From Haloferax marinisediminis (GTDB lineage: Archaea > Halobacteriota > Halobacteria > Halobacteriales > Haloferacaceae), in contig NZ_WKJP01000001.1 in NCBI RefSeq assembly GCF_009674585.1, positions 248,001 to 312,000 on the forward strand: a DNA stretch of 64,000 nucleotides, read 5' to 3'. The notes beneath the pieces were generated by a model, which saw only the letters and a list, made by a program, of their open reading frames with translations, did no database searches and was not told the DNA's origin. Position numbers and translations under genes: made by a program. Positions 35,594 through 45,521 of this stretch are shown in pieces. How positions within the stretch are numbered: position 1 is the stretch's first letter; each line of letters begins with the position of its first letter.

Positions 35594-36688
35594 ATGAACG
35601 AACTCGACCTGCTGACGGCTGACCTCGTCTCGATTCCTAGCCACGAGGACGAAACCGCCGCTGGCGACTTCATCGAGGCGTGGCTTCGCGACCAGACTGA
35701 CGCAGACGTGACCAGAGACGACGTAGGAAACGTGCTCGCCCGTGTCAACGCCGGCGTCGGTGAATCACTCGCACTCGTCGGCCACCACGACGTCGTCCCG
35801 CCAGCACCCCGACAACTGACCGACGACGGCGAATACATCGTCGAGACGGCGGATGGCCGCCTCTACGGGCGCGGGAGCGCAGACATGAAAGGTGCGGTCG
35901 CTGCGTCGATGCTGGCCTTCAGAGACGCCGCGGAATCAGCATCGCAGGAAGTCGTCTTCGCCTCGTTCGTCGACGAAGAACTCGGAGGGAATGGTGTCCG
36001 TTCAGCACTCGAAGAAGGACTCTCGCTCGATTACGCCGTCGTCGCCGAAGGGTCGACCAACTACTCGGGCCCCGACCGAACTGACGTCGTCGTCGCCCAC
36101 CGTGGTCGTCGCGCGAGCGTCCTCGAAGTCTCTGGAACTGCGTGCCACGCCAGCGAACCTGAGCGGGGTGAAAACGCAGTGTATCGCGCGTGCGACGCGG
36201 TGGACGTGGTGCGCGAACTGACGTTCCCCGAAACTGAGGTGCTGGGACACACCGTCTCGGGAAGCATCGCAGTCACCGAGATTGACGGCGGGAGCGCGTG
36301 GAACGTCATTCCCGACTACTGTGAAGTGACCATCGACGAGCGAACCGTCCCCGGTGGGTACGCCGACCTCGCCCAGACTGAATCCATCGACGGCGTCGAG
36401 TGGGTTGTCGAACAGGACCTTCCGCCGATGGCCTGTGACGACGCCGACTTCGCCGAGCGAGTGTTCGAGGCGGCCCAGCGAGTTCACGAGGACCGCGGTG
36501 ACGACGCGCCCGAACAGGTGACGAAACCACACGCTACCGACGCAGGGTGGCTTGCTCAGGAGGGAACGACCTGTATCGTCTACGGTCCATCAGAGCCCGG
36601 CGAGGCCCACACGAAGAACGAGAGCGTCTCACTCGACGTGCTGGAGCGGTGTTACGAGACGTACCGTGACCTCGTGGAGGGGTGGTAA
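35594..36688 (+). CDS. M20 family metallopeptidase (ArgE/DapE-like)
   Basis: This 364-residue zinc deacylase or peptidase has the family ligands: His in LVGHHDVVPP, Asp in GRGSADMKG, Glu in FVDEELGGNG, Glu in VVAEGSTN and His in GEAHTKNES. The dimerisation insert contains ACHASEPERGENA. Family members remove N-acyl groups from amino acids (ArgE, DapE, LysK) or cleave dipeptides, and nothing nearby fixes the substrate. The ATG at 35594 follows a CTTTTCT element by about 25 bases. Confidence 0.92.
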   Translation: MNELDLLTADLVSIPSHEDETAAGDFIEAWLRDQTDADVTRDDVGNVLARVNAGVGESLALVGHHDVVPPAPRQLTDDGEYIVETADGRLYGRGSADMKGAVAASMLAFRDAAESASQEVVFASFVDEELGGNGVRSALEEGLSLDYAVVAEGSTNYSGPDRTDVVVAHRGRRASVLEVSGTACHASEPERGENAVYRACDAVDVVRELTFPETEVLGHTVSGSIAVTEIDGGSAWNVIPDYCEVTIDERTVPGGYADLAQTESIDGVEWVVEQDLPPMACDDADFAERVFEAAQRVHEDRGDDAPEQVTKPHATDAGWLAQEGTTCIVYGPSEPGEAHTKNESVSLDVLERCYETYRDLVEGW

Positions 36689-36842: not shown

Positions 36843-38351
36843 ATGGCACAATCCTCCACAGAAGAGGCATCGGCGTACGACCGACTACTCGCGAAGTACA
36901 AGCGAATCGCCAACGTCGAAAACGCCGGTGGCATCCTCTCGTGGGACCAGCAGGTCATGATGCCCGACGAGGGGACGCCCGCGCGGTCCCAACAGATGTC
37001 GGCGCTCTCGGCGCTCAGTCACGAACTGCTCACCGACGACGAGTTCGGTGAACTCCTCGAAGCGGCGGAAGCGGACGACCCGACCGACGAACAGGCCGAC
37101 GTGCTCCGCGAACTTCGGCGTGACTACGAACGTGCCGTACGCGTCCCGAACGACCTCGTCGAGCAGATTTCGGCGGCGGCGTCCGAGGCGATTCCCGCGT
37201 GGAAGCAGGCCAAGGCCGAAGACGACTTCGAGACGTTCGCCCCGCATCTGGAGAAACACGTCGAACTGAAGCGGCAGTACGCCGAGCACATCGACCCGGA
37301 CCGCGACCCCTACGAAGTGCTGTTCGAAGACTACGAACCGTGCCTGCCGCTCGAACAGGCCGAAGAGATTCTCGACGAAGTTCGCGAGGTCCTCGTCGAG
37401 ATGATTGCAGACATCCGCGAATCGGAGACCGAACTCGCCGTCGACGCCTTCGAAGGCGAGTTCCCGGCCGACGACCAGGAAGCACTCGTCCGCGACGCGC
37501 TGTCGACGCTCGGCTATCCGTGGGAACGTGGCCGTCTCGACACCGCACCACACCCGTTCTCGTCGGGGACGCAGTTCGACGCTCGCGTGACCACCCGCTA
37601 CGACGAGTCCGACCCACTCGGGTCGCTCTTTTCGACCATCCACGAGTTCGGTCACGCGCTCTACACGCTCGGCCTGCCGGACGAACACTACGCGACGCCG
37701 CTCGGTGAGGACCGAAACCTCTCCGTCCACGAGTCGCAGTCCCGTCTCTGGGAGAACCACGTCGGCCGTTCGCGTGCCTTCTGGCAGCACTTCCTTCCCA
37801 CGTTCACCGAACACTTCTCGGACGTCGATGCGACCGTCGAGGAGGCGTACGAGGCAGCGAATCAGGTGTACGAGGACAACCTCATCCGCGTCGAAGCGGA
37901 CGAACTGACCTACCACCTGCACATCGTCATCCGGTTCGAACTCGAACGCGCGCTCATCTCGGGTGACCTCGACGTCGAAGACGTGCCGGAGGCGTGGAAC
38001 GACAAGTACGAAGAGTACCTCGGCATCCGCCCGGAGACCGACTCCGAAGGCTGTCTGCAGGACATCCACTGGGCCTACGGCAACTTCGGCTACTTCCCGA
38101 CGTACTCTCTCGGGTCGATTATGTCCGCGCAGTTGTTCGACGCGGCCGACGACGACATCGAGAACCTCGACGAGAAGATTGCTGACGGTGAGTTCGCCGA
38201 CCTGCGCGAGTGGCTCCGCGAGAACGTCCACCAGTACGGCCGTCGCTACGAGACGAACGACCTAGTCAAACGCGCCACCGGGAAGGACTTCGCCGCCGAC
38301 GACTTCCTCGACTACGTCGAAGCGAAGTACACCGAGCTGTACGACCTGTAA
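36843..38351 (+). CDS. carboxypeptidase M32 (Taq/Pfu type)
   Basis: This 502-residue metal carboxypeptidase removes C-terminal residues from peptides. It has the HExxH site in TIHEFGHALYTLGLP, the third ligand region HESQSRLWENHVGRS, the substrate-binding DELTYHLHIVIRFELE and the end motif GRRYETNDLVKRATG. It is close to the family's usual 500 residues. It lacks a signal peptide, so it works in the cytosol in peptide turnover. It follows the M20 peptidase by 154 bases but has its own promoter. Confidence 0.95.
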   Translation: MAQSSTEEASAYDRLLAKYKRIANVENAGGILSWDQQVMMPDEGTPARSQQMSALSALSHELLTDDEFGELLEAAEADDPTDEQADVLRELRRDYERAVRVPNDLVEQISAAASEAIPAWKQAKAEDDFETFAPHLEKHVELKRQYAEHIDPDRDPYEVLFEDYEPCLPLEQAEEILDEVREVLVEMIADIRESETELAVDAFEGEFPADDQEALVRDALSTLGYPWERGRLDTAPHPFSSGTQFDARVTTRYDESDPLGSLFSTIHEFGHALYTLGLPDEHYATPLGEDRNLSVHESQSRLWENHVGRSRAFWQHFLPTFTEHFSDVDATVEEAYEAANQVYEDNLIRVEADELTYHLHIVIRFELERALISGDLDVEDVPEAWNDKYEEYLGIRPETDSEGCLQDIHWAYGNFGYFPTYSLGSIMSAQLFDAADDDIENLDEKIADGEFADLREWLRENVHQYGRRYETNDLVKRATGKDFAADDFLDYVEAKYTELYDL

Positions 38352-38437: not shown

Positions 38438-38614
38438 ATGGCCTCAGCACCCAGTGACGACTTGTTCGACCAGTTCTTGGCCGACCGCGGTCACGAGACA
38501 GAACCGGCACGCTGGGATCGATCCTATAACAAACTGCAGTGCCCCGATTGTGGGGCGTTGCACGACATGGGCGCGGCGACATGCTCCGTCTGTGGGTGGT
38601 CGCCGGAGGCCTAA
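38438..38614 (+). CDS. zinc finger micro-protein (HVO_0416-like)
   Basis: This 58-residue protein starts MASAPSDDLFDQFLADRGHE and ends with a zinc ribbon of C35, C38, C49 and C52 (QCPDCG and CSVCGW). The order of genes and the sequence recall the HVO_0416 family of Haloferax micro-zinc-finger proteins, whose roles are largely unproven. The start ATG at 38438 is preceded by another ATG at 38434 in a different frame. It sits upstream of the helicase gene on the same strand, but 159 bases separate them. Confidence 0.88.
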   Translation: MASAPSDDLFDQFLADRGHETEPARWDRSYNKLQCPDCGALHDMGAATCSVCGWSPEA

Positions 38615-38773: not shown

Positions 38774-40624
38774 ATGAGCGAATCCGACGTGACCGTCACC
38801 CGCCTATTTGGGGGTCCGGGTAGCGGGAAGACCACGGCCTTACTCAACAAGGTCGAGGAAATTCTCGAACAAGACGACGTCAGTATCCGCGATATCCTCG
38901 TTGTCTCGTACACTCGTGCCGCAGCGGCAGAGATTCGGGACCGACTCGCTGACCGACTCGACATCAATCCGCGTTCGTTGAAAGGCAACGTCTCGACGAT
39001 GCACGCGAAGGCGTACGAACTACTCAGCCTCTCGCGCAACGACGTCGTCGGCGAGAAGGACAAACAGGAGTTCTGTGAAGAGTACGGACTGGAGTTCCAA
39101 GACGAGTACAGCGGCGCCGGCCGTCGAACGGCCCGTTCGACCACCATCGGGAACAAGGTTATCGCTACGAGTCAGTGGCTTCAGCGGACCCGCCGCGATG
39201 TCGCCGACTGGTACGACGTCCCGTTCCAGTGGAACGTCGAAGAGGTTCGTCTTCCGCCAGAAATCGACCCCAACGCACAGGAAGGCAACAAGTACACGCC
39301 GACGTGGCCCTCTGACGACGACCGAATCGACATCCCCGAAGCCATCCGCGCGTGGCGCGCCTACAAGGGAGAAAACGGACTCGTCGGATTCGCAGACATG
39401 CTCGAACGAGTCAAGCAGCGCGCTCTCGTCCCGAACGTCGACTACCTCGTCATCGACGAGTTCCAGGACATCACCACACTCCAGTACGACGTGTACGAAG
39501 AGTGGAAACCGCACATGACGGGCGTCCTCATCGCCGGCGACGACGACCAGGTCGTCTACGCGTGGCAGGGTGCAGACCCGAACCTGCTCCTCGACGCCGA
39601 GCGTGACCACGACGAGGTTCTGCCGAACTCCTACCGTCTCCCGTCGAACGTCCTCAACGTCGTCAACCGTGAGATTCGACACATCGACAAGCGGCAGGAG
39701 AAGGACCTCAAACCCCGCAAAGAAGGTGGGTCCGTCGAAGCAGTCGAGAGTCCGTCGATGCTCGAACTCGCCCGGAACGTTCGCTACACCGTCGAACAAG
39801 ACGACGGGACCATCATGGTGCTGTTCCGTGCCCGGTACCAGATGTTCCAGTTCATCGACGAGTTCCTCCCCTCGGGCATCCCGTTCTCGACGCTCACTGA
39901 CCAGCGCATGTGGACCGACCGCCTCACGCAGTACGTCCGCGCCGTCGAGGCGATGGAGGCCGACGAACCCGTCGATGGGTTGCAGGCTCGCCGCCTCGCC
40001 GACATGCTTCAGGACTCGGCGTTCGGGACCAACGACCGCGACGACCTGTTCGACGCGATCGACGAGCGGAAAGAAGAACAGGGTGCCGAGGACATCACGG
40101 AACTCGAGTTCACCCCGAAGGAGATCAAGAACTTCGCCCCGTTCGCGCCGAACGGAAGCGCCGCTTCGGACATGGTCCGCAAAGTGACCAGTTTCCAGCG
40201 CAAGTCCGTCGACGCGTACTTCTCCGGCGACTACGCCGGCATGGACCCGAGTCGCGTCCGCGTCGGAACCATCCACTCTGCGAAGGGTCGTGAAGCAGAC
40301 CACGTGTTCATGGCGACCGACCTGACCGAGAAGGTCGTCGAGCAGATGGCCGCCTCCGTCTCCGAAGAGGAACTCGAAGCCCGCGGCATCGACGAGTTCA
40401 CCTCGGCGACGAGTCCGGTCCCGCTCATCACGGACAACGAGCGCCGTGTCTTCTACGTCGGGATGTCCCGTGCGCGTGAGCGCCTCATCATCCTCGAAAA
40501 CCTCGTCAACGGAGCACCGACGCTCCCAATCAGCGTCCTCCTCCACAACGAGATTCGCGACGAAGACACCCAAGCACTCGTCGAGGCAGCCCAAGAACCA
40601 CCCGCGCCCGAACCCGAGGCGTAA
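38774..40624 (+). CDS. UvrD/Rep superfamily I DNA helicase
   Basis: This 616-residue superfamily 1A helicase has motif I GGPGSGKTT, Ia VVSYTRAAAAEIRDRL, II VIDEFQD, III AGDDDQVVYAWQGAD, IV NSYRLPSNVLNVV, V VGTIHSAKGREADHVF and VI RRVFYVGMSRARERL. It unwinds DNA in repair or restart. It is shorter than bacterial UvrD and ends with an unstructured acidic/Pro tail (EPPAPEPEA). The stop is 7 bases before the GTG of the M24-like gene, so they are cotranscribed. Confidence 0.93.
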   Translation: MSESDVTVTRLFGGPGSGKTTALLNKVEEILEQDDVSIRDILVVSYTRAAAAEIRDRLADRLDINPRSLKGNVSTMHAKAYELLSLSRNDVVGEKDKQEFCEEYGLEFQDEYSGAGRRTARSTTIGNKVIATSQWLQRTRRDVADWYDVPFQWNVEEVRLPPEIDPNAQEGNKYTPTWPSDDDRIDIPEAIRAWRAYKGENGLVGFADMLERVKQRALVPNVDYLVIDEFQDITTLQYDVYEEWKPHMTGVLIAGDDDQVVYAWQGADPNLLLDAERDHDEVLPNSYRLPSNVLNVVNREIRHIDKRQEKDLKPRKEGGSVEAVESPSMLELARNVRYTVEQDDGTIMVLFRARYQMFQFIDEFLPSGIPFSTLTDQRMWTDRLTQYVRAVEAMEADEPVDGLQARRLADMLQDSAFGTNDRDDLFDAIDERKEEQGAEDITELEFTPKEIKNFAPFAPNGSAASDMVRKVTSFQRKSVDAYFSGDYAGMDPSRVRVGTIHSAKGREADHVFMATDLTEKVVEQMAASVSEEELEARGIDEFTSATSPVPLITDNERRVFYVGMSRARERLIILENLVNGAPTLPISVLLHNEIRDEDTQALVEAAQEPPAPEPEA

Positions 40625-40631
40625 TCCGCCC

Positions 40632-41741
40632 GTGCCGTCCGGTCCCCGCGGCGGTTCGGCCATCGACGCCGCCATCGACGAGAGAACTGCGGTCGGATTC
40701 GTCGCCATCTGCCGCGCTGACGACCCACTCGGCAGGTATCTGACCGGCCGCGACCTCGGTGTCGATGTCGTGTACGTCCGCGTCGCCGGCGAGACGCATC
40801 TTCGCGTTCCCTCGACGGTCGACGTTCCAGAGGTTCCAAACGCGTCTGTCCGCGTGGACGACAGACCAGCAGGCCAAGCCGCCGCGGCGATTCTGGCCGA
40901 CCACGCACCCGATGGAACGGTGCTGGCACCGCGAACGATTCCCCACGACACCGCACTCCACCTCGAATCGGCGGGCTACGAACTATCGTCGACGACAGCA
41001 GTGCGAGACGCTCGGGCAATCAAGGACACCGAAGAAATCGATGCTATCGAAGGGGTTCAGCGGGCCGCAAAGCGCGGCATCACCGCCGCCGCCGTCATCC
41101 TTGCCGATGCGCACGTCGAAGACGAGACGCTCGTCTGGGGCGACGCACCCCTCTCGACGGAGCGTATTCGGCGGCAAGTGAACGCGACACTCGCCGTCGA
41201 AGGTGTCGACTCGGTGGGAGCGACGACAGTGACGACAGGCACTCGCGGCGGACGAGACGCGGCGGTCGAACTCGTGCCGGGCGAACCAATCGTTGTCTCG
41301 GTGTCGCCGCGTGGTCCCGCAGGATACCGCGGGGCGCTCGCGCGAACCTTCGTCGTCGACGCGGACGGCGGATGGGAACGACGGGCTCACGTGGCCTGTG
41401 ACGCCGCCCGAGACGTTTCGCTCGTGGAGGCGAACGCCGGTGCCGATGCCGGCTTCGTCGGGAGCGAGATTCGCGCCGAGACGGCCGCGTTCGGCTTCTC
41501 GATGAACGACGAAGTGACGAGAGACGTCGGGGGCGGCATCGGACTGGCCGCCCGAGAAGCCCCACAACTAGACGGAGACACCGAACTCGTCGAAGGAAAC
41601 GTCGTCAGAGTTCGTGCTGCAATCTCCCACGCAGACAACGGCCGGGTAGAACTGACCGACGTGCTCGTCGTCGGTGAAGACGGCCCACGGATGCTCGGTG
41701 ACGCGCCGACCGGTCTCGACCCGTCTCGCTGGAGCGAGTGA
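40632..41741 (+). CDS. M24 (Xaa-Pro aminopeptidase-like) fold protein lacking metal ligands
   Basis: This 369-residue protein has a creatinase-like N-terminal domain and a C-terminal pita-bread domain. Compared with the M24 pattern, all five metal ligands look changed. The DxG region reads SVSPRGPAGY and the second Asp position reads RGALARTF. The HxxGH region reads DVGGGIGLAAREAP, and the two Glu regions read NVVRVRAAISH and VELTDVLVV. It should therefore be a non-catalytic binding module. It starts with GTG at 40632, 7 bases after the UvrD-like helicase stop, and no better ATG fits. Confidence 0.82.
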   Translation: MPSGPRGGSAIDAAIDERTAVGFVAICRADDPLGRYLTGRDLGVDVVYVRVAGETHLRVPSTVDVPEVPNASVRVDDRPAGQAAAAILADHAPDGTVLAPRTIPHDTALHLESAGYELSSTTAVRDARAIKDTEEIDAIEGVQRAAKRGITAAAVILADAHVEDETLVWGDAPLSTERIRRQVNATLAVEGVDSVGATTVTTGTRGGRDAAVELVPGEPIVVSVSPRGPAGYRGALARTFVVDADGGWERRAHVACDAARDVSLVEANAGADAGFVGSEIRAETAAFGFSMNDEVTRDVGGGIGLAAREAPQLDGDTELVEGNVVRVRAAISHADNGRVELTDVLVVGEDGPRMLGDAPTGLDPSRWSE

Positions 41742-41758: not shown

Positions 41759-42001
41759 CTACTCTTCTTCGTCTGGCTCTTTTGCGATGCCGCCCATGAC
41801 TTTCTCGGCCGCGAGCATCGGAATGTCCTGCGGCGTGGTGAGATACTTCGGAAGCGCGACCATGAGGACGGCGAGGAAGACCATCGCGCCGCCGAAGACG
41901 GTCCGACCGTCCATCAGGAGTGTGAGACCGAAGACGCCGAGCGGAATAGCGAAGATGAGCGACGCTCCGAGTCCGATCATTTCTAAGATTCCGAGTCGCA
42001 T
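41759..42001 (-). CDS. small two-helix membrane protein, haloarchaeal
   Basis: This 80-residue protein starts MRLGILEMIGLGASLIFAIP, has a second helix VFGGAMVFLAVLMVALPKYL, and ends with EKVMGGIAKEPDEEE. I do not recognise a named function, though the PKYLTTPQDIP motif looks conserved in character. The ATG at 42001 was chosen because the residues before it form no sensible helix. It converges with the M24-like gene and is divergent from the SLC13 gene. Confidence 0.75.
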   Translation of the reverse strand: MRLGILEMIGLGASLIFAIPLGVFGLTLLMDGRTVFGGAMVFLAVLMVALPKYLTTPQDIPMLAAEKVMGGIAKEPDEEE

Positions 42002-42125
42002 CGAGCGCGGATAGTCTTCGGGTGGACAAAAGCGTCGCGGCATCGTCGGTGAGGCGCGTCGAGAGAGGTGCCCCACCGACAGTGAGTTCGTCGTGCTCTC
42101 GCCGACGTGACAATCAGCCAAGGAA

Positions 42126-44864: not shown

Positions 44865-45521
44865 ATGTTCACAGGAATCGTGGAGGGGCCGGGCGAAATC
44901 GTCGGTGTGACCGACACCGCGAGTGGTTTCTCCGCAGGAGAGATTACGTCGGATGACTCATCCGACGGTGGTCGCCGCCTTCGAATCAGAACCGACCTCG
45001 AGTTCGACGACCTCCACCACGGCCAATCTATCGCCGTCTCTGGCGTCTGTCTGACGGTCGAGGAGTTCGGCGACGACTGGTTCGAAGTCTTCCTCGCCGC
45101 AGAGACGGTCGAGAAGACCTACCTCGGCGAGGTCGGTGAAGGCGACCGAGTCAACCTCGAACGCGCGCTCGCGGCGAGTGACCGCTTCGACGGACACATC
45201 GTACAGGGTCACGTCGACGGGACGACCACGGTCAGCAACGTCGAACAAGTCGGTGACGACTGGTTCTTCGAGTTCGACCTGCCCGAGTCGCTCGCGAAGT
45301 ACGTCGTCCAGAAAGGCTCTGTCTGTCTCGACGGCATCAGTCTCACCGTGGCCGACCGCCGTGACGACTCGTTCGCCGTGGCAATCATCCCGACGACCTA
45401 CGACCTGACAACGCTCTCGGAGAAAGACCCCGGCGACCCGATTCACGTCGAGGTCGACGTGGTTGCAAAGTACGTCGAGTCGATGCTCGACGGCTACGTC
45501 GACGGGTTGCGCGCGGAGTAG
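44865..45521 (+). CDS. ribE: riboflavin synthase, bacterial-type alpha subunit
   Basis: The enzyme dismutates two lumazines to riboflavin. The 218-residue protein has the two tandem lumazine-binding repeats. The first starts MFTGIVEGPGEIV and contains GVCLTVEEFG. The second starts DGHIVQGHVDG and contains GISLTVADRR. It is the trimeric bacterial-type enzyme, which haloarchaea use in place of the archaeal RibC found in methanogens. An acidic insertion of about 15 residues (GFSAGEITSDDSSDGG) interrupts the first barrel near its start. Confidence 0.94.
   Translation: MFTGIVEGPGEIVGVTDTASGFSAGEITSDDSSDGGRRLRIRTDLEFDDLHHGQSIAVSGVCLTVEEFGDDWFEVFLAAETVEKTYLGEVGEGDRVNLERALAASDRFDGHIVQGHVDGTTTVSNVEQVGDDWFFEFDLPESLAKYVVQKGSVCLDGISLTVADRRDDSFAVAIIPTTYDLTTLSEKDPGDPIHVEVDVVAKYVESMLDGYVDGLRAE

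Follow-up and report, generated by a model that had tools for sequence, protein, structure and literature searches.

A metal-less M24 protein encoded next to the UvrD helicase in Haloferax, a candidate pseudo-prolidase with a proposed binding role

Introduction

Two kinds of described protein come closest to the M24 protein analyzed here, namely archaeal prolidases of the PepQ type (PF00557, M24B) and M24 folds that serve as binders. Spt16-N of the FACT complex is a catalytically dead M24 fold with a DNA-linked role, followed in Spt16 by further domains, and Arx1 is an M24-fold protein used as a binder. To our knowledge, dead M24 folds acting as binders are known from eukaryotes, with Spt16 and Arx1 as examples. 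Ebp1 is described, in a passage of the source, as a MetAP-fold binder without catalytic activity (PMC7005732). The turning of M24 folds into binders is thus already known (Spt16, Ebp1), and a search of open-licence full texts, without supplements, found no description of a UvrD-linked family, of the helicase-M24 gene pair or of HVO_0414, the gene that would correspond in Haloferax volcanii.

The helicase side of the locus is better described. According to the passages on these genes in the cited sources, H. volcanii HVO_0415 is UvrD (PMC7776575) and HVO_0416 is a small zinc finger with one CPXCG motif (PMC6490895; PMC6560208), for which a single transcript of its own has been observed (PMC6490895) and whose deletion is listed with a gain in biofilm (PMC6562870). 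In the part of the source that concerns it, deletion of UvrD gave no sensitivity to UV or MMC (PMC7776575), and a passage elsewhere states that UvrD co-purified with Cas1 (PMC9051519). Here we analyzed a stretch of 64,000 nucleotides from Haloferax marinisediminis (contig NZ_WKJP01000001.1, positions 248,001 to 312,000), called the window below and used for all coordinates, together with related loci from the family, the class and a sample of the phylum.

Results

The helicase gene (38774..40624, + strand) encodes a UvrD-type SF1 helicase of 616 aa (PF00580, 107 bits, cut-off 23). Its stop codon TAA (40622-40624) is followed, after a 7-nt gap, by the GTG start at 40632 of an M24-like gene on the same strand (40632..41741, 369 aa). 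PF00557 is the sole Pfam domain of the 369-aa protein, and its score of 45.4 bits exceeds the cut-off of 23, so that the original prediction of an M24 homologue seven bases 3' of a UvrD-like helicase describes the locus correctly. The short gap suggests that the two genes may be cotranscribed. Upstream of the helicase lies a small zinc-finger gene of the HVO_0416 type (38438..38614, + strand, 58 aa, CPDC..CSVC); such a gene was found 5' of the helicase, on the same strand and at most 700 nt away, in 70 of 76 named loci. Because an SF1 UvrD-type helicase here stands beside an HVO_0416-type zinc finger, in the same gene order as HVO_0415 and HVO_0416, we take it to be the UvrD/HVO_0415 orthologue, by synteny rather than by comparison with the volcanii sequence. 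By numbering, the M24 gene should then correspond to HVO_0414. The unit is a three-gene neighbourhood of zinc finger, UvrD and M24, within which the zinc finger need not share a transcript with uvrD, since HVO_0416 has one of its own. The HVO_0416-type gene was also seen beside UvrD in several genomes with no adjoining M24 gene.

The closest named matches, at 82% identity, are to H. profundi and H. marinum. Another contig of the genome carries a further UvrD-type frame, longer than the first (1067 aa; G000:C6:22383-23315, L198). Upstream of the three genes are two peptidase genes, which by eye we take to be of the M20 type (35594-36688) and the M32 type (36843-38351). Downstream, a small gene on the reverse strand (41759-42121), matched in 52 of 68 named loci, forms a conserved block with a presumed riboflavin-synthase-like gene (RibE, named by eye; 44865-45521, + strand). 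Among the named loci, which had been retrieved by M24 patterns, 68 reach 10.8 kb or more; of these, 68 have the helicase, 54 RibE, 24 M32 and 14 M20. We therefore rejected the view that the unit is really a cluster of peptidases, M32 and M20 being far rarer than the helicase.

We then asked how widely the helicase-M24 pair is conserved. A close homologue of the helicase was found in 168 of 170 genomes of the family and 288 of 292 of the class, and the M24 protein had a match, paralogues included, in 169 of the 170. Among the 130 family genomes with both genes among the matches listed, the M24 gene was directly downstream of the helicase on the same strand in 129; in the sole exception (G138) the two genes are on different contigs. 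A further 20 genomes had the helicase but no M24 gene among the matches listed. Several of these carry divergent, truncated or broken adjoining copies, one region (G144) ends at a contig edge, and three genomes (G004, G005 and G097) show no M24 copy beside the helicase. The idea of an orphan pair restricted to this genome was thus rejected, and the conservation in haloarchaea on which the original prediction depended was found, within the family and in others. In other families, the M24 gene was 3' of the helicase in 15/15 (f4), 6/6 (f7), 3/3 (f9) and 4/5 (f2) of the regions read, rates that are biased, as an M24 match already seen had guided the choice of the regions from f9, of most from f7, and of three from f2 and four from f4. 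UvrD had no adjoining M24 gene in the regions from f3 (0/10), f8 (0/4), f10 (0/2) and f6 (0/2) or in one of the five f2 regions, part of the other-family regions having been read to about 1.5 kb past the helicase. Since several families keep UvrD without it, the M24 protein is not an obligate UvrD subunit. None of the 328 conserved helicase columns met the criterion for tracking the presence of the M24 gene. Outside the class, the best score among 163 genomes of the phylum sample was about 240 bits, in the range of unlinked prolidases.

To compare the active site, the M24 protein was aligned to the P. furiosus prolidase 1pv9 and in multiple alignments, one of which left out L001, L002 and L006 (a duplicate). 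All five metal ligands are replaced. S223 (codon 41298..41300) stands at the first Asp position, A235 (41334..41336) at the second, G301 (41532..41534) at the His, R328 (41613..41615) at the first Glu and T342 (41655..41657) at the second Glu, all on the + strand. We take these to be D209, D220, H284, E313 and E327 of PepQ; the residues themselves were checked in 1pv9. By the residue comparison and the tree, R308 (41553..41555, + strand) occupies the place of a further active-site His, the second, in the motif GLxxHE, and no PepQ-H192-type His is present either. The prediction that each canonical ligand position had been replaced therefore survives a correct alignment, in which D-D-H-E-E is not intact, and the protein lacks the signature of an active M24 metallopeptidase. 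It also scored only 29.6 bits against the archaeal PepQ equivalog NF040821, whose cut-off is 630. All 15 Haloferax genomes examined lack the five ligands, with S/A, A/S, G, R and T/V in their places, and keep the frame open. The loss of the ligands is neither chance nor a frame error, and a frameshift or mis-called start as its source was rejected on these grounds.

The predicted structure is that of a whole prolidase. The AF2 model (pLDDT 96.3, pTM 0.92) has 1wy2, 1pv9, 4ege and 5giu as best Foldseek matches, and VIA-align placed the prolidases 1wy2, 1pv9 and 5cde at Z of about 34-36. The two-domain fold is shared with PepQ of P. horikoshii (1wy2, Z 36.0 over 334 residues) and P. furiosus (1pv9, Z 34.5 over 326 residues), and an intact orthologue from Haloprofundus has the same predicted fold (pLDDT 95.3). 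Together with the PF00557 score, the pita-bread fold of the model and of the fold-search matches agrees with the predicted creatinase/aminopeptidase fold. The suggested parallel to Spt16 was upheld only in part. Spt16-N of chickpea (5ce6) does resemble the model (VIA-align Z 31.3, rank 45), but active prolidases are closer, and Spt16 as the nearest relative was rejected.

The creatinases 1chm, 1kp0 and 7yto were also among the structural matches. Creatinase is active without metal, and the pita-bread fold of this protein could in principle have become an enzyme of a new kind that needs no metal, a reading to which the frequent R308 and E309 of dead copies might also be fitted. We consider this improbable, since the former catalytic positions, with S, A, R, H, G, E and others, differ from one dead lineage to the next and so offer no common new active site. 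In addition, only 3 of 47 dead copies retain the PepQ-H192-type His, which may be equivalent to the creatinase His; the rest have a gap or another residue there.

While the old site varies, another part of the protein is retained. The motif GGWERR (residues 246-251, 41367..41384, + strand) comes after strand two of the former metal site, and its GG..RR pattern was present in 170 of 170 helicase-linked rows, dead or intact. None of the 12 other M24s compared had it; seven of these are intact and unlinked, and five are additional ones. The 170 rows include same-species duplicates and leave out L050 from the 171 linked rows (149 when distinct), and part of the loci had been found by a pattern including GGW, which biases the count toward GG..RR. 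In helicase-anchored regions, which are free of that bias, GG..RR was found in 55 of 56 M24 matches, the exception being the broken copy L050. Specific to linked copies are the segment RTxVVDxxGGWxRRA, located where helix 248-266 starts, and E283. In a comparison of 47 dead and 29 intact rows, spread over genera and drawn from the 171 linked rows (those left out include the g26 rows, the truncated copies of g17, and L050 and L051, both broken), R250, R251, E283, H105, Y232, R238 and T239 were invariant. Secondary structure in the AF2 model suggests that R250 and R251 would lie on one helical face.

At position 308, the same rows carry His in 29 of 29 intact copies and Arg in 32 of 47 dead ones. 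In a larger set, His308 had become Arg in 40 of 59 dead rows versus 0 of 42 intact rows, by 16 changes on the helicase tree, of which 12 are forced. His to Arg is a one-step change. The preference for Arg nevertheless looks specific to this site in these alignments, because the metal-ligand His became Arg in just 3 of the same 47 rows.

The helicase-linked M24 gene is found in both intact and dead form. D-D-H-E-E is kept at the uvrD locus in Haloprofundus, Halogeometricum, Halobaculum, Halolamina and many Halorubrum, and two to five ligands are lost in Haloferax, Halobellus, Halogranum, Halegenticoccus, Halohasta, Haloarchaeobius, Natribaculum and part of Halorubrum. The 149 linked copies that are distinct comprise 61 intact ones, 4 lacking a single ligand and 84 lacking two or more. 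The intact copies at the same locus in so many genera indicate that the gene belongs to an enzyme lineage that lost its site. Seven unlinked intact M24s (L180-L184, L186, L187) are related to the linked family and lack GG..RR, and some unlinked intact copies share a genome with a dead linked copy (G200, G137).

How often the site was lost depends on the tree. The helicase tree was built from 109 loci, comprising L008 and every locus of L078-L196 whose helicase stretch reaches 1300 nt, and leaving out L009-L077. On it, switches between the intact and the dead state number 13, or 14 when the other labels are used, and 8 or more fall on well-supported, starred branches. The M24 tree requires only 6, since 47 of its 59 dead rows form one clade (support 99). 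Taken at face value, this clade and the lower count would mean that the metal-less state arose once or a few times and was then spread or differentially kept, as an ancient duplicate or by in-place replacement. Such a history, which would concern the past of the gene alone and is compatible with a binding role, seems to us rather unlikely. For the dead group, no fewer than 4 changes are forced on the M24 tree too, the dead rows are long branches, and the residues standing in for the ligands vary from lineage to lineage (SAGRT, RFHTS, EHHTS, DAREG, SRYHA). In AU tests on 51 rows, with the longest branches left out, species-like groupings were not rejected (p-AU 0.188, 0.59 and 0.391), and holding Halogeometricum and Halobellus as a clade fitted slightly better than the free tree (4.9 lnL, p 0.59). 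Inside Halorubrum there is a hint of repeated loss (L102, L109, L110, L118). Given the long dead branches and the AU tests, we favour loss on repeated occasions, for which the two trees give different numbers.

The main rival to a retained function is slow decay. The gene would then be a former peptidase that stands behind uvrD by chance, with an activity made dispensable by other prolidases, and its dead copies would be disappearing. Several observations fit this account. M24 copies in genus g17 (L045-L048, L070) are shortened to about 250-330 aa beside the helicase, with GG..RR kept, and those of L050 and L051 are split over two frames; the gene is absent beside UvrD in f3, f6, f8 and f10; and intact paralogues occur in the same genome, two of the seven PF00557 matches of H. 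marinisediminis (L001 and L002) having D-D-H-E-E. By NG86, on gap-free columns alone and with pairs that are not independent, dN/dS was 0.352, 0.390 and 0.367 in three other dead groups, above the intact groups (0.131, 0.249 and 0.240), and these dead groups look somewhat relaxed. The Haloferax copy behaves differently. Its median dN/dS is 0.233 over 105/105 pairs (maximum 0.341), within the range of the intact groups, with 0.200 for its pita-bread domain and 0.112 for the helicase, and the frame is open at full length in every Haloferax genome examined. The dead M24 gene of Haloferax is under purifying selection. The retention of GG..RR in every linked copy tested, truncated ones included, and the recurrence of Arg at the old His position also speak against decay, which may be true in some lineages and is unlikely as the general explanation.

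Discussion

We lean, with moderate confidence, toward the view that the Haloferax M24 protein is a pseudo-prolidase retained for a non-catalytic, binding role beside UvrD. The loss of all ligands, the purifying selection and the conserved adjacency agree with the original prediction of a pseudo-peptidase beside a helicase. Alignments and trees suggest that the ancestor would have been a metal-dependent M24 peptidase with its site intact, encoded next to uvrD, and that this site would have been lost in several lineages, completely so in Haloferax. The fold, the place next to uvrD and the segment specific to linked copies were kept. Since Haloferax keeps other M24s with D-D-H-E-E, peptidase chemistry could be spared. 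The protein, expected to be inactive in vitro, may bind through the predicted helical face of R250 and R251 and perhaps also through the former substrate pocket. Its partner would most likely be either UvrD itself or a protein of DNA repair with which UvrD comes into contact. In that case the M24 protein would serve the UvrD motor as an adaptor or regulator and not as a peptidase.

The comparison with described systems sets this proposal in context. Same-locus orthologues in other genera keep the D-D-H-E-E of PepQ, whereas in the Haloferax protein all five ligands and two active-site His are replaced. With Spt16-N (5ce6, 3cb6, 5umt) it shares a link to DNA and an M24 fold that, in the Haloferax protein, is predicted to be without catalysis. 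It differs from Spt16 in consisting of the prolidase fold alone, with no further domains in the AF2 model, the fold search or Pfam, and the link to histones and chaperones belongs to Spt16, the Haloferax protein being known here from its gene and predicted fold. Ebp1/PA2G4 and Arx1, as MetAP-fold proteins serving as binders, resemble the role proposed here, but are MetAP-2-like, ribosomal and eukaryotic and belong to another branch of the M24 clan.

A broader reading of the alignments, which we offer tentatively and hold less firmly than the role in Haloferax, is that haloarchaea several times turned a prolidase into a dedicated UvrD accessory, dismantling the metal site, often with a change of His to Arg, and keeping the helical face of GG..RR. 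The locus presents a prokaryotic example: next to a helicase central to DNA repair, related genera carry an M24 protein at the same place, living in some and dead in others. If the proposal is true, an archaeal repair helicase would have a pseudo-peptidase partner that parallels the M24 domain of FACT but arose independently of it. The function and partners of haloarchaeal UvrD, and the way in which an enzyme turns into a scaffold, would become testable in a tractable organism.
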